Assembly: GCA_902768065.1 (NCBI GenBank) | Contig: CACXJP010000083.1 | Coordinates: 1 to 5,242, forward strand | Source: an uncultured Erysipelotrichaceae bacterium | Lineage (GTDB): Bacteria; Bacillota_I; Bacilli_A; RF39; UBA660 | Direction: 5' to 3' | Length of the DNA: 5,242 nucleotides | Shown: piece after piece, positions 1-4,662 of the stretch | How the letters are laid out: every line of letters begins with the position of its first letter | Position numbering within the stretch: position 1 is the first letter of the stretch | Program-made: the position numbers and the translations under genes | Notes under the pieces: model-generated | Database searches by the model: none | Told to the model about the DNA's origin: nothing | What the model saw: the letters and a program-made list of their open reading frames with translations, nothing else

Positions 1-510
1 ATCAAATTTATCTACTGCCTTCATTAAACCAATGTTTCCTTCTTGGATTAAATCTAAGAATAGCATTCCACGTCCAACATATCTTTTAGCAATACTAACA
101 ACTAAACGAAGGTTTGATTCAGCCAATAGTCTTTTAGCCTCCTCATCTCCTTCTTCAGCTCTTTTTGCATATTCAAATTCTTCATCTGAAGTAAGTAAGT
201 TAATACGTCCAATCTCTTTTAGATACATTCTTACTGGATCGTTTATTTTAACATCTTTTGAAAGTGTTAAATTTTCAACTGACATATCTTGAGTTATTTC
301 TTCTCCTGATGCATCATCTGATCCATCTTCTGATACTATTTCAATATTTTCTTCTACTAATGAATTATATAATTCATCTAAAGTATCACTATCAATATCT
401 AATCCTTTTAATTGTTCTGCTAGTTGTTCATATGTTATATATCCTTGTTGTTTTCCAAGTGCAATTAATTTTGCTTTTCTTTCATCAAGAGTTTTAATTA
501 CTTCAACCAT
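1..510 (-). CDS. rpoD: RNA polymerase major sigma factor RpoD (SigA), N-terminal part, cut by window edge
   Basis: The window holds the first 170 residues of the primary sigma factor, which directs RNA polymerase to housekeeping promoters. What is seen: a short N-terminal helical segment of region 1.1 type ([20 protein letters not shown], about residues 8-27), an acidic linker (about 55-75), the region 1.2 signature [18 protein letters not shown] (89-106), and the start of regions 2.1-2.2 with [17 protein letters not shown] (132-148) and [19 protein letters not shown] (152-170). The frame runs cleanly off the left edge, so the -10 and -35 binding regions 2.4 and 4 lie outside. The ATG at 510 is the first possible start, because a TAA sits four codons upstream in the same frame. 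No strong Shine-Dalgarno is visible, and the start overlaps the 3' end of dnaG by 13 nt, so translational coupling to dnaG is likely (inference). The dnaG-rpoD order is the classic macromolecular-synthesis operon. Confidence 0.96.
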
Positions 511-2216
511 ACTACTATCTTAGCTTGTTCAATTGGGTCTACTTCTTTTTTCATTAAATTTGTGAGTCTTTTTATTTCTTGTTTTTCACAATATTCTTTT
601 GTAACTTTGAAATATAAGAATAGCTCATCTTTTGTAGTTTTCTCATTATATGAATCACCTAAGATATCATTTATTAATATTAGAATATTTGATTTATCCT
701 GAATATAAGTATAAAAATCAGCAATATTAATATTACCATATTTTTTGTAATAATAGGTTATCTCACTGCATAGTTCTCTCATTTCCTCTGTCGGGAATAT
801 TATTCTTTCTTTTTCAACTTGAGTAATTACCCAATCATTATTAAGCATAAAATAGATAATTTGTTCATATGCTTTTGTATACTTATTCTTTTTCTTTTGT
901 TCTTTTTTTGGTATTATAACTTCTTCTTTTTGTGGTTTTTCTTCATTGAAGCTATTTATACGCATTTCCAGTGTATTATAACCTATATCGAATTCTTTTG
1001 CAAGTCTTTTTAATACTACTTCTCTTCTTATTGGGTCATCTAGTTTAGCAGTTTCTTTTAAAACCTCATTAATATAGTTTGCTTTTTCTTCATCACTTCT
1101 AAAATCAACATTTTCTCTTAATCTTTGAAATTTAAAATCTGAAAAGTTTATAGCAGATTCTACTAATCCTACAAATCTATCTTTACCATTTTTTAGAATA
1201 TAGGTATCAGGGTCATCTGGATTTGGGAGTTTTATTATTTTAACTTCAATTCCTTGTTCTAATAAATGGTCTCCTATACTTAGCATAGCTTTTTGTCCTG
1301 GATCATCACCATCTAAACATAAAATAATATTATTTGATAATCTTCTAAGTAATGCTATTTGTTCTTTTGTTAGAGCTGTTCCCATTAATGCTACTGTATT
1401 ATTAATACCAATAGTTGATGCTCTAATAACATCCATAAAGCCTTCCATTACTATTACAGAATGTGCTTTTCGACATTCTTCTTTTGCTATATGATAATGA
1501 TATAATAATTGGCCTTTTTTAAAGATGTCTGTTTCTTTAGTATTTAAGTATTTATTTTTTGTTTTGTCTTTTAAATCTTTTTCTTTATAAATTCTTCCAC
1601 TAAATGCAACTACTCTTCCATTTGTGTCATATAGAGGAAACATTATTCTTTCGCTATATATATCATATTTATCTGTAGATAATCCTATTCTATTTAAAGT
1701 TACTAAATCATTGTCTTTACTTTGTAATAAAGTAGTTAAGTCATCTCTTTTATCTAGAGATAATCCAATTTCATATTCTTTTATTATTTTTTCATCAATT
1801 TTTCTTTTTTGTAAATAATCCTTTGCCTCTTTACCCACACTACTATTTAAATTATTTTGATAGTACTTTAATGATAATTTATAGGCATCATAATATTTAT
1901 CGTATTTAGTACTTTTTTTTGCTATATGAATACTTCCTGTATCAATTCCTACTCTATTTCCTAAATACTTTAATGTTTCTTTAAAGTCCATGTGTTCATA
2001 ATTCATCAGAAATGTAAAAACATTTCCTGTTGCATGACAAGAAAAACATGTGTATATTTGTTTTTCTCTTGATACACACATTGAAGGGTTTGAATCATCA
2101 TGGAATGGACATACTCCAAAGAAATTTTTTCCTTTAGCGACTAGTGGTATTCTTTCACCAACAATATCTACAATATCAACTTTATTTCTTATTTGATTTG
2201 TAAGTGTATTATCCAT
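498..2216 (-). CDS. dnaG: DNA primase DnaG
   Basis: This 572-residue protein makes the RNA primers for lagging-strand synthesis and for restart at the replication fork, acting with the DnaB-type helicase. The N-terminal CHC2 zinc-binding domain is visible with C36-P-F-H39 and C57-F-S-C60 as ligands. The catalytic core follows, with ERIMFPLYD (189-197) and GRVVAFSGR (200-208). The TOPRIM fold shows E258-G-F-M-D262 and D302-G-D-D-P-G307, the acidic residues that bind metal in this family. After a lysine-rich linker (about 427-446), the C-terminal ~125 residues are helical and should be the helicase-binding domain, which is poorly conserved in sequence. The length is normal for bacterial DnaG (roughly 580-600). 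The ATG at 2216 is preceded by AAGGTGGTG, a usable ribosome binding site. The stop overlaps the start of rpoD. An extended -10 promoter lies just upstream. No missing motif or frameshift is seen. Confidence 0.98.
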
Positions 2217-2221
2217 GTTTT

Positions 2222-2230
2222 CACCACCTT
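2222..2230 (-). promoter_or_regulatory. Ribosome binding site of dnaG
   Basis: Reading the minus strand, AAGGTGGTG ends 5 nt before the ATG at 2216. It matches the anti-Shine-Dalgarno imperfectly (AAGG plus GGTG) but is the only purine-rich stretch at the right spacing, and it supports the chosen dnaG start. Confidence 0.6.
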
Positions 2231-2243
2231 ATAAACAAAATAT

Positions 2244-2252
2244 ATTTTAGCA
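2244..2252 (-). promoter_or_regulatory. Extended -10 promoter for dnaG-rpoD
   Basis: The minus strand reads TG-C-TAAAAT, an extended -10 element one base from consensus. It lies in the 59-bp gap between the upstream gene and dnaG. The matching -35 position (17 bp upstream, TAGTAA) is poor, as is common when a TGn extension is present. The predicted start is near 2237, giving a leader of about 20 nt. The prediction is by eye only. Confidence 0.5.
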
Positions 2253-2275
2253 CATTTTATTTTACTTTACTATAT

Positions 2276-2815
2276 TTATCTGTATACTTTTTGACTTGCT
2301 TTTTCTAGATTACTCAATTTATTATTAGCAAACTCATCAATTACTTTTTGATTATCTTCATATCTTGAATTACTAAAACATAGACCTTTTAATTCCATTT
2401 CTAGTTTATCTCTTCTATACTCATAATAATCAATTTCTTTATTATAATATTCAGTTAAAAAATCTGTTAATTTTAATAATTCTTCATAGTTGTTTTTGTT
2501 TGCTAGTTCTGCTATTTTCTTAAAGTATGACTGGTATTTCAAGACTAAAAGAGTTAATTCTTCTAAAATATTATTATCATAATCATAAAAGGATTCTTCT
2601 TCTTCTTCAAAAATGAAATTAAAGAAATTTCTTATTTTTGCCGATAATTGCCATCTTTTATTTTCTTTTATCTCTTTTTTATAATCTTTTTCTATTTCAT
2701 ATGTATCATCTATACCTATAATGATAAATGCTAGAAATTCTTCTAAACTATTTACATGTTTACTTTTAATTTCAAATTTTTCATATTCTTCTTCAAGTTC
2801 AGTAATTGTTTTCAT
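2276..2815 (-). CDS. Hypothetical acidic, helical protein (179 aa)
   Basis: I do not recognise this family. The protein is rich in Glu, Lys, Asp, Tyr and Asn, has no signal peptide or convincing membrane segment, and looks almost entirely helical. It opens with an acidic ELEEEYEKFEIK stretch, has a run of five acidic residues followed by FYDYDNN near its middle, and a second helical half with EYYNKEIDYYEYRRDKLEMELKG. A cytoplasmic coiled-coil or helical-bundle protein is the most that can be inferred. A GTG at 2824 would add three residues, but it lies inside the AGGTGA Shine-Dalgarno sequence, which sits 5 nt from the ATG at 2815, so the ATG is the better start. It has its own near-consensus promoter and is followed 59 bp later by dnaG, which also has its own promoter. 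It occupies the place where rpsU sits in the textbook rpsU-dnaG-rpoD operon, but it is not an S21 homologue. Base composition matches its neighbours, so transfer is not indicated. Confidence 0.75.
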   Translation of the reverse strand: MKTITELEEEYEKFEIKSKHVNSLEEFLAFIIIGIDDTYEIEKDYKKEIKENKRWQLSAKIRNFFNFIFEEEEESFYDYDNNILEELTLLVLKYQSYFKKIAELANKNNYEELLKLTDFLTEYYNKEIDYYEYRRDKLEMELKGLCFSNSRYEDNQKVIDEFANNKLSNLEKASQKVYR

Positions 2816-2820
2816 ATAAT

Positions 2821-2826
2821 TCACCT
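2821..2826 (-). promoter_or_regulatory. Ribosome binding site deciding the start of the 179-aa gene
   Basis: The minus strand reads AGGTGA, 5 nt before the ATG at 2815. It overlaps an alternative GTG start at 2824, which is therefore unlikely to be used. Confidence 0.65.
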
Positions 2827-2836
2827 ATAGTTTTAT

Positions 2837-2865
2837 ATTATAACACTGAGTTTTTCACAAGTAAA
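2837..2865 (-). promoter_or_regulatory. Sigma-A promoter of the 179-aa gene
   Basis: On the minus strand, TTTACT (2860-2865) is followed by a 17-bp spacer and a perfect TATAAT (2837-2842), extended by TGT immediately upstream. This is the best promoter in the window. The predicted start is near 2830, giving a leader of about 15 nt. It lies just downstream of the T-run of the terminator hairpin at 2875-2912, so the gene appears insulated from upstream transcription. Confidence 0.72.
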
Positions 2866-2874
2866 TTTTTTTAT

Positions 2875-2912
2875 AAAAAAACATCTGATTTCAACTTAGT
2901 TGATTTCAGATG
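2875..2912 (-). terminator. Intrinsic terminator (minus strand)
   Basis: CATCTGA (2882-2888) pairs with TCAGATG (2906-2912). A symmetric 2x2 mismatch separates this from an inner TCAAC/GTTGA stem with a 3-nt loop. On the minus strand the stem is followed directly by seven T residues (2875-2881). It would end transcripts arriving from the secreted-protein gene, or from a small RNA started in the intergenic region. Its stem arm can also pair with the neighbouring hairpin at 2921-2960, so attenuation is possible. Confidence 0.75.
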
Positions 2913-2920
2913 CATCCATT

Positions 2921-2968
2921 AAGGAGGTTACGTCTGATTCCGACAATCAAACGTATCCTTTTTGTTTT
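2921..2968 (+). terminator. Hairpin with T-tract on plus strand; possibly half of a structured minus-strand RNA
   Basis: AAGGA (2921-2925) pairs with TCCTT (2956-2960), ACGT (2930-2933) with ACGT (2951-2954), and TGATT (2935-2939) with AATCA (2945-2949) around a CCGAC loop. On the plus strand the stem runs into TTTGTTTT, so it could terminate plus-strand transcription. However, no plus-strand gene precedes it. On the minus strand the same hairpin stands just before the 2875-2912 terminator, so it may instead be the first stem of a structured leader or small RNA. Confidence 0.45.
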
Positions 2969-3052
2969 ATGAAGTTTCTTTCATTCATATACAATATATC
3001 ATAAAATAAGATATAATTTAATATTTATAATTTAAAACTATTAAAATCAACT

Positions 3053-3078
3053 CCATGAACTTAACATTAAGTTCATGG
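3053..3078. terminator. Inverted repeat, candidate bidirectional terminator
   Basis: A perfect 12-bp stem (CCATGAACTTAA and its complement) encloses a 2-base centre. The plus-strand side continues into a T-rich run (TATTCTTATTTCTTTATTTT at 3081-3100), and the minus-strand side into GTTGATTTTAATAGTTTT. Neither T-tract is uninterrupted, so termination is plausible but unproven. It could end the transcript of the secreted-protein gene. Confidence 0.4.
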
Positions 3079-3100
3079 TGTATTCTTATTTCTTTATTTT

Positions 3101-3128
3101 CAAATGACTAAATTAATTTAGTCATTTG
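3101..3128. repeat. Perfect 28-bp palindrome
   Basis: The arms CAAATGACTAAATT (3101-3114) and AATTTAGTCATTTG (3115-3128) are exact inverted copies with no spacer, giving about 12 pairs and a minimal loop if extruded or transcribed. Neither strand has a following T-run, so it is not a standard terminator. It sits exactly at the change from AT-rich to G+C-rich sequence. It could be a protein-binding dyad, a remnant element end, or an RNA-processing or stability hairpin. Confidence 0.6.
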
Positions 3129-3137
3129 CTGTCGGAT

Positions 3138-3184
3138 GGTTTCTGCTTGTCCGCAACGATCGTTCGGAGCGCGCTTTAGAAACC
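3138..3184. repeat. Long imperfect hairpin in the G+C-rich 3' flank
   Basis: The outer stem GGTTTCT/AGAAACC (3138-3144 with 3178-3184) encloses an inner stem TCCG-AAC / GTT-CGGA (3150-3157 with 3162-3168) with one bulged base and a GATC loop. It has no adjacent T-run on either strand. Its composition is unlike the surrounding AT-rich DNA and matches the adjacent variable-region segment. Function unknown; it may belong with the retroelement target site. Confidence 0.5.
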
Positions 3185-3236
3185 TTTCTTTATCGGTATT
3201 GGGCTATTCCTCATCCTTAGTATGAGATTTGCCTTT

Positions 3237-3256
3237 ATTAGAACGCTTGTTCTAAT
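3237..3256 (-). repeat. 8-bp stem, 4-nt loop inverted repeat at stop codon: candidate DGR target-site hairpin
   Basis: ATTAGAAC and GTTCTAAT form a perfect 8-bp stem around AAGC (minus strand). It begins at the last base of the TAA stop of the secreted-protein gene and is followed by AAAGGC, not a T-run, so it is not an intrinsic terminator. DGR target genes such as mtd of Bordetella phage BPP-1 carry a hairpin or cruciform of about this stem size with a 4-nt loop a few bases after the variable region; it raises the efficiency of mutagenic homing. The loop here is not the GRNA tetraloop reported for several DGRs, which weakens the match slightly. Confidence 0.6.
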
Positions 3257-4548
3257 TACCCGATTCGGAAAGCTGGAGCGACACCGCGAGTACCAGTAGC
3301 ATTACCGCCATTCCAATTACCACTAATATCGACATTGGCAAAATGATTACCACTACCAGAAGAGGCCGGGCGCAACCACCACCCTGTGTTTGAGGAATTA
3401 TATTGTTTGATTGCTTTATCATAATTTGTTCCACTCCAACTATTTGTTGAATAAGTTACACTATTATTACTATAATATTCTAATTGATGTGATGTTCCTA
3501 CTGCTGTATCATAGAAATTGTTTCCTCCACCATCAGTTCCAAATACTTCTTCTCCTGATAACAAGTATAATGATTGATTAATACTTGTGAAGTTTGCTGT
3601 ATCTGTTCCATTATTTCCATATCCTGATATTACTCTTGTTGGTTTTATTGCACTTTGTAATTGTGGTGGTAATTGTCCTAGTAATGTATTATTTAAATAA
3701 TCATATACTAATGTTGCAGGATACCCTCCTATGTTTGTATTTGTTGAATTCATTGATTTTCTTTCTACTATATCTACAAATTCTACTACGAAACCACATG
3801 CTGTTTGTGAGAATGCTGTATCATTATCTCCGCAATGATCTCCCGTTGTTTTATTTGCTATTCTTACTGTATAATCTACATTATTTATTGTTACTTCTTT
3901 TGTATCTCCTATGTTGTATGCACTTGTATTATTATCTTGTACTGCTTTCTTTATTGTTGCCCATGAATCTGTTGCAAATGATTCTGGTTCTCCTGCTATC
4001 TTTGATTTAGGACTACTTCCTGTTGCGTTTTCGTTTTCTATTGGTGTTGCTGTTAAGGTTCCTGTGACACTTGTTGTTACATCTGCTTGTATTGGAGTCT
4101 TTATCATTTCTACTCTTATTGTTGCTGTTGTTGTATCTCCTGCTTGTAGTTGTGAATCTGCTACTGTCTCTGTTATTTTGAAGTATTCGTTATTTGAGTT
4201 TGTTAATTGTAATGAGATATCTGCACCTATTCCATTTGAATTGTTTGATATTGTATATGTTGCTACTCCATAGTCTCCTACTTTCGTTAATCCTGATACA
4301 TCAAAATATGCTATTGTTGCATCATTATCATCTATACTTGATGTTCCAGAAACTCCTGTTGATCCTGTGATACTTTGTGCTTGTGTAAAATACACTTTAA
4401 AGTTTTCTTGATTTACACTTGCTGTTGCATTACCATTAATTAGTAAATTAATCGCTGTAATAGATGCATAACCTATACCTAAAGTCAATACAGCTATTGC
4501 TACTAATAATACTATTTGTAACGTTTTTTTGTTTTTAAAATTTTTCAT
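3256..4548 (-). CDS. Secreted or membrane-anchored DUF6273-like protein, putative DGR target (430 aa)
   Basis: The N-terminus has lysines (K2-K8) followed by a hydrophobic segment (about 10-32) ending in GYASITAINLLINGNATA. This is the signal/anchor style of TasA/SipW-dependent and related uncultured-Bacillota surface proteins, so export to the cell surface is expected. Residues ~45-172 look like a beta-sandwich rich in Thr, Ser and Asn. After a linker (173-192), residues ~193-430 resemble DUF6273 / formylglycine-generating-enzyme-type C-lectin folds: YNIGD (211-215), MNSTNTNIGGYPATLVYDYLN, LYLLSGEEVFG, then W390-W391-L-R-P and a terminal GVAPAFRIG. C239 and C251 might form a disulfide. The last ~43 codons are much richer in G+C than the rest and fit a DGR variable region. 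The ATG at 4548 is chosen because GAGGAG lies 8 nt upstream; an in-frame ATG at 4653 would overlap the thrS terminator. The ligand is unknown; binding of a variable surface partner is inferred from the fold. Confidence 0.88.
   Translation of the reverse strand: MKNFKNKKTLQIVLLVAIAVLTLGIGYASITAINLLINGNATASVNQENFKVYFTQAQSITGSTGVSGTSSIDDNDATIAYFDVSGLTKVGDYGVATYTISNNSNGIGADISLQLTNSNNEYFKITETVADSQLQAGDTTTATIRVEMIKTPIQADVTTSVTGTLTATPIENENATGSSPKSKIAGEPESFATDSWATIKKAVQDNNTSAYNIGDTKEVTINNVDYTVRIANKTTGDHCGDNDTAFSQTACGFVVEFVDIVERKSMNSTNTNIGGYPATLVYDYLNNTLLGQLPPQLQSAIKPTRVISGYGNNGTDTANFTSINQSLYLLSGEEVFGTDGGGNNFYDTAVGTSHQLEYYSNNSVTYSTNSWSGTNYDKAIKQYNSSNTGWWLRPASSGSGNHFANVDISGNWNGGNATGTRGVAPAFRIG
3257..3391 (-). 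repeat. Putative DGR variable region (VR) at 3' end of the target gene
   Basis: This covers residues ~387-430. By hand count the segment is about 50% G+C, against far lower values upstream in the same gene. Invariant-looking anchors (GWWLRPA, F403, V406, W412, GVAPAFRIG) use codons such as CGC, CCG, GCC, GTC and GGG that are rare elsewhere here. Between them nearly all codons are NNT or NNC (TCT, GGT, AGT, CAT, GAT, ATT, ACT, CGC), the set reachable from AAY template codons by adenine mutagenesis. The 3' end (GTCGCTCCAGC...ATCGGG) would hold the initiation-of-mutagenic-homing sequence. Boundaries are approximate, because the template repeat is not in the window. Confidence 0.6.
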
Positions 4549-4648: not shown

Positions 4649-4662
4649 GACATATGTGTAAA

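Follow-up and report, generated by a model that had tools for sequence, protein, structure and literature searches.

A probable diversity-generating retroelement target, detached from template and reverse transcriptase, between housekeeping genes of an uncultured Erysipelotrichaceae bacterium

The DNA analysed here, referred to as the window, is a stretch of 5,242 bases in which all genes run on the minus strand: a partial rpoD, dnaG, an open reading frame (ORF) of 182 amino acids, the target gene considered in this report, and a partial thrS, all delimited as ORFs. From their products we take the named genes to be rpoD, dnaG and thrS, and a profile search confirmed the sigma-70 domains. The target gene was taken to start at 4548, where GGAGAA precedes it, rather than at 4653, the earliest ATG in the open frame; its reading frame is intact. 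The encoded protein consists of a hydrophobic N-terminal segment modelled as a helix (residues 7-25), a modelled beta-sandwich at about residues 44-171, and a C-terminal DUF6273 domain (PF19789, residues 262-429, E = 7.1e-15, 55.7 bits against a cut-off of 23.5), which upholds the DUF6273-class ending proposed by the first-pass annotation. The structure model is unreliable over residues 303-430, where pLDDT is below 50; the hydrophobic N-terminal helix makes export plausible. Here and below, statements on published work refer to the available parts of the papers cited; a link between DUF6273 and C-lectin domains is described in one of them (PMC10743442). The features discussed below are as follows, in window coordinates.

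3256-4548, minus strand: target gene for a 430-residue probable exported protein (ORF, PF19789 match, structure model)
3255-3379, minus strand: variable repeat (VR), from alignment with a template repeat (TR) of a relative and an all-against-all scan for adenine bias
3292-3363, minus strand: candidate diversified codons 396-419, with 17 TR-adenine codons and high entropy
3256-3282, minus strand: constant 3' VR anchor (VAPAFRIG and stop), conserved in the homolog alignment and, by analogy with the literature on diversity-generating retroelements (DGRs), the putative IMH
3237-3256, minus strand: 8-bp inverted repeat immediately following the stop codon, with AAGC as its 4-nt loop, seen in the sequence and paired in folds
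3138-3184, minus strand: post-VR hairpin element with the core CTCCGAAC....GTTGCGGA, aligned with seven other loci
3039-3113, minus strand: flank 88% identical to the stretch just upstream of an Avd-like gene in a related genome (G002:C13; blastn against L146 11718-11793)

Elsewhere in the window, an intergenic region before the 182-residue gene (2870-2990) contains hairpins that finish in a run of T resembling a terminator. They had no match in Rfam, and part of the region resembles a stretch in another genome (G013:C10, L157).

The end of the target gene departs abruptly from what precedes it. The final 46 codons, counting the stop, have a GC content of 0.51 against 0.31 before them, and a third-position pyrimidine share of 0.74 against 0.35. 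Within codons 391-420, 87% end in T or C, compared with a maximum of 63% and a mean of 35% in 30-codon stretches further upstream and a maximum of 73% in such stretches of the four adjoining genes, of which two are incomplete. All 17 codons that lie opposite AAY or AGY codons of a relative's TR are NNT or NNC. Both the compositional break and the NNT/NNC pattern noted at first reading are therefore real. The VR had been placed at 3257-3391 and does lie there, but its upper limit shifts, as similarity to the TR covers 3255-3379, about 12 bases shorter. Positive selection of the ordinary kind, acting on a binding surface, or an artefact of composition could be invoked, since DUF6273 surfaces are plausible binding sites; selection on amino acids, however, is not expected to switch codon endings and GC or to yield the adenine-specific mismatches described next, and the probability left to this account is negligible.

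Relatives were gathered by a DnaG search of GTDB contigs, from which the best 80 of 168 loci were taken; these are labelled mostly as uncultured Erysipelotrichaceae, Bacilli or Bacillales, several of them from ruminant guts. Thirty of those 80 genomes were searched for the VR, and matches to VR plus flank were found in seven (E 0.001). In one of them (G013:C15), the VR and flank of a sister target are 84% identical to the window over 323 bases, and an AAT-rich repeat of the VR, the TR, lies about 350 bases beyond the sister VR (L141 15629-15760, aligned with the window VR). The window VR differs from this related genome's TR at 19 of 40 adenines and at 4 of 85 other bases (Fisher 3.7e-8), such that 19 of 23 mismatches (83%, above a 75% level) face A. 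The neighbouring sister VR differs from the same TR at 23 of 40 adenines and 4 of 85 other bases. As a control, in 30 gene-body alignments with relatives A accounted for 42% of bases and 28% of the 2,800 mismatches, and its share stayed at or below 36% in every alignment with at least 15 mismatches. A near-repeat with A-specific mismatches, a prediction of the first-pass annotation, thus exists in a relative; within the 5,242-base window, the A-bias scan detected no TR. G013 is a different species from the window strain (DnaG 77% identical), and its TR may itself be recombinant because its 3' end is VR-like. This TR carries its own terminator-like hairpin with no reverse transcriptase (RT) adjoining (L141 15600-15830), and upstream of it only the tail of an Avd-like gene seems, by eye, to be left. 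Repeated searches of the G013 genome found no RT.

Complete cassettes are present in other related genomes. From the family of G013, 386 genomes were sampled out of a larger group; the TR had matches in 16 of them, G013 included. A search with the RT adjoining the G088 TR reached 84 genomes at E 1e-10, eight of them at 55% identity or more (G088 included), and in seven of these eight the best TR match lies on the contig of the RT (G088, G209, G349, G177, G400, G306 and G032; not G149). Accordingly, the expected DGR-type RT near the template is found for the same TR class in related genomes. In G002, too, the Avd-like gene, TR and RT stand together. The cassette order, read in G088, G400 and G306 and partly in G177, G209 and G002, is a target with VR, a hairpin, an ORF of about 190 amino acids, an AAY-rich TR and the RT. 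Mismatches between TR and VR in cis are confined to A in G088 (21 of 21; 0 of 69 other bases) and G400 (20 of 20; 0 of 66) and nearly so in G306 (15 of 16; 1 of 73); over longer alignments the A share is 96% of 23, 100% of 20 and 88% of 17, respectively. These cassettes therefore combine a TR beside an RT with A-specific TR-VR mismatches, as a DGR should. The protein of about 190 residues encoded between VR and TR (L208 9729-10307) belongs to no Pfam family and has the Avd fold (Avd 4dwl), supplying the accessory component of the cassettes; it is a sequence-diverged Avd and a modest addition to what is known. Several copies look damaged: beyond motif 4 the G400 RT diverges, stops interrupt the G032 RT, and an in-frame stop lies in the Avd-like ORF of G177. 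Separately, a second DGR class occurs in the same group (G019:C25, L152 7600-9718), with a VR-bearing target, an AAC-rich TR, an ORF that is Avd-like by position, and an RT with IGAMTSQ.

The RT of the first class (L208 8237-9295; homologs P0241-P0360) is unusual in motif 4. Whereas (I/V/L)GxxxSQ is characteristic of DGR RTs (PMC3521204), the relatives' RT has GxExAQ, a motif shared by 111 of the 120 RT homologs among the matches listed (189 were found); of the others listed, one has SQ (P0360, the last), one has VQ, and seven have no recognised motif. AQ is listed among the variants of 15/155 deviating elements, variants that look functional (PMC3521204); the present RTs are alike in having AQ for SQ, with the difference that here AQ prevails throughout a lineage. 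TR-VR mismatches in this lineage remain adenine-specific, and its RT motif is likewise a modest extra beyond the known kind of DGR.

Variation among homologs is concentrated in the same codons. In an alignment of the window protein with 39 homologs, taken from 120 listed of 2,185 matches and spanning species and paralogs rather than strains, mean entropy is 2.86 bits at the 17 TR-adenine codons, compared with 0.67 bits at the 13 other VR codons and 0.61 bits over codons 1-389. This agrees with the excess variation at NNY codons foreseen among relatives. Seventeen of the 25 most variable positions lie inside the VR and eight outside. The closest protein among the matches listed (P0001) has a body 99% identical to the window protein and the same VR. 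Whole and partial paralogs are numerous, with 25 matching pieces in G002 and 17 in G013. Four groups among the 40 proteins (P0002/P0008; P0003/P0006/P0011/P0028; P0014/P0024/P0038; P0021/P0036) carry identical VR proteins on bodies that are only 76-88% identical, which may reflect exchange of VRs between family members or chimeras in metagenome assemblies.

Both the many paralogs and the shared VRs would suit antigenic variation in which silent copies feed gene conversion and no DGR takes part. Such conversion, however, does not explain differences from one template that are restricted to adenines, as in G088 and G400, nor the linked RT and Avd-fold protein; the A-specific TR-VR data make it insufficient by itself, and chimeras may also account for the shared VRs. 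As a sole explanation it is thus very improbable, although gene conversion and a DGR may both be at work. A broader and more speculative proposal, about one chance in three in our judgement, is that one TR-RT-Avd core rewrites dispersed exported DUF6273 proteins, that VRs also recombine between members, and that the serine of SQ is dispensable where the motif is GxExAQ. If so, that serine would not be needed for adenine-specific error, because the RT would work with GxExAQ.

Downstream of the VR, inverted repeats at 3237-3256 and 3138-3184 place a hairpin or cruciform where DGRs have one. The 161-nt stretch 3100-3260 folds with z scores of -6.3 as DNA and -5.4 as RNA. In an alignment of eight hairpin elements, CTCCGAAC-loop-GTGAGGA forms the shared centre, flanked by outer stems that differ in sequence. 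When nine inner pairs are named, 86% of cells pair (24-44% in slid controls), and four of the nine pairs are changed on both sides. Of 500 shuffles, 4 reached the observed value for cells paired, 26 that for pairs changed, 3 that for covariation and 463 that for further pair types. When each element is folded on its own, seven of nine, the window included, adopt the common architecture as their best fold, the exceptions being G177 and G103. By eye, the loop fits GRNA, as described for phage DGRs (PMC3240598), in G013, G400, G177, G019, G209 and G103; it does not in the window (GATC at 3138-3184, AAGC at 3237-3256) or in the cis targets of G088 (GTAA) and G306 (AAAT). The relatives' hairpin sits where that of BPP-1 sits (PMC3240598). 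Within 200 bases of the two targets on G088:C71 the core is absent, so it is not an absolute requirement; the BPP-1 stem-loop is likewise reported to be important though not strictly required (PMC12875486).

ORFs and the A-bias scan revealed no Avd-like gene, TR or RT in the 5,242-base window. The distance from thrS to the 182-residue gene is about 1.84 kb here; among 13 loci with both genes it is 75-80 bases in three (L003, L013 and L031), 123 in L010 and 210 to 3,286 in the other nine, and the target gene is absent from the best 80 of 168 DnaG loci as extracted. As the flank at 3039-3113 stands without the Avd-like gene, either the target brought cassette flank along when it arrived or the core of a cassette has been lost from this site.

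To weigh these possibilities, the extracted loci yield 37 VR-like ends, one of which is the G013 TR itself; the other 36 were each scored against the best-fitting of seven TRs. At least 75% of mismatches fall at A in ten, the window included, and fewer in 26. The two VRs on G088:C71 have 25 and 17 A mismatches with 2 of 69 others each, the VR of G002:C37 has 25 with 5 of 70, and that of G013:C40 has 24 with 1 of 70 against the G002 TR. VRs of G002:C30, C16 and C2 fit their own genome's or other TRs poorly, with non-A mismatches at 11 of 69, 12 of 69 and 23 of 66 bases. The 26 ends that fit poorly may belong to other TRs or be old. Some remote targets, not all, therefore look freshly rewritten. 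These nearly pure A mismatches make rewriting in trans plausible, and the few targets in relatives that seem to have drawn on a TR of a different contig make it likelier, although location on another contig does not prove distance, since the reference genomes are metagenome assemblies.

Alternatively, the window target may be a fossil that is no longer rewritten, either what is left of a cassette after loss of the Avd-like gene, TR and RT or a target copied to another place. The flank reaches near the start of an Avd-like gene that is itself gone. Decayed copies make such loss plausible. In G019:C3 and G101:C110 a VR survives while the Avd-like gene is cut down to roughly its first 43 codons; the hairpin core is clear in the former and diverged in the latter. 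G013:C15 has VR, hairpin and TR in a genome where no RT was found. The poor fit of most VR-like ends points the same way, and similar remnants exist in Treponema denticola (PMC4891356). Against this stand the freshly rewritten appearance of remote targets such as those on G088:C71, the intact target frame, and the window VR itself, which retains 81 of 85 non-A template bases even though the TR compared is from another species. A fossil has a substantial minority chance once DGR origin is granted, and slightly less overall; granted the same origin, the sequence comparisons lean towards present rewriting in trans.

That the segment derives from a DGR is close to certain, and the explanation of it as the VR of a DGR target gene is highly probable; that this target lies apart from its TR and RT and is at present rewritten in trans is somewhat more likely than not. 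The RT and Avd-like protein would copy TR RNA into cDNA, placing random bases opposite adenines, and this cDNA would replace the VR. The DUF6273 binding surface, facing outward, would thereby change at about 17 codons, with the scaffold codons left as they are. The target, situated between thrS and the gene on the dnaG side with part of a cassette 5' flank, would be rewritten in trans.

The window locus belongs to a known type of diversity system from which it stands detached: the machinery absent here adjoins sister genes in related bacteria. It resembles the BPP-1 DGR (mtd/avd/TR/brt) in its 3' VR, TR, Avd-fold accessory, RT and post-VR hairpin (PMC3240598); the window differs in lacking avd, TR and RT, and the relatives differ in their GxExAQ RT and in a longer hairpin with an inner GA/GA loop. 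Among gut phages, tentaclins and the DGR targets of Faecalibacterium prophages also carry the VR in DUF6273 (PMC10743442, PMC11792537), whereas the window locus lies between housekeeping genes and has a beta-sandwich towards the N-terminus of its product. Nothing in the window points to a virion gene, and one phage record among 50,697 matched the target protein (30% identity over 56%). Treponema denticola likewise has targets far from, or without, an RT/TR core (PMC4891356). That species belongs to a different phylum, and its cassette is of another lineage. Many DGRs have several VRs (PMC6642488). The parts are those of known DGRs, and the literature already describes remote targets, leftovers, DUF6273 targets and AQ motifs. 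Searches of the available literature, with subscription journals thinly covered, showed no work naming this lineage among that on DGRs with DUF6273, Erysipelotrichaceae or rumen Firmicutes surface proteins, and no mention of DGRs in that on TasA or camelysin.

With this finding, targeted hypermutation reaches uncultured gut Bacilli and a chromosomal DUF6273 family there, probably of surface proteins and with several members per genome. The window locus is of a kind missed by DGR surveys that seek a VR beside an RT, and one such survey states that it would miss remote targets (PMC8144416). The prevalence of AQ with intact adenine specificity offers a natural test of the role of the SQ motif. 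If a single core does serve dispersed targets whose VRs also recombine, diversity in this family would be built in two layers, the random rewriting of binding codons and the exchange of finished VRs between scaffolds.
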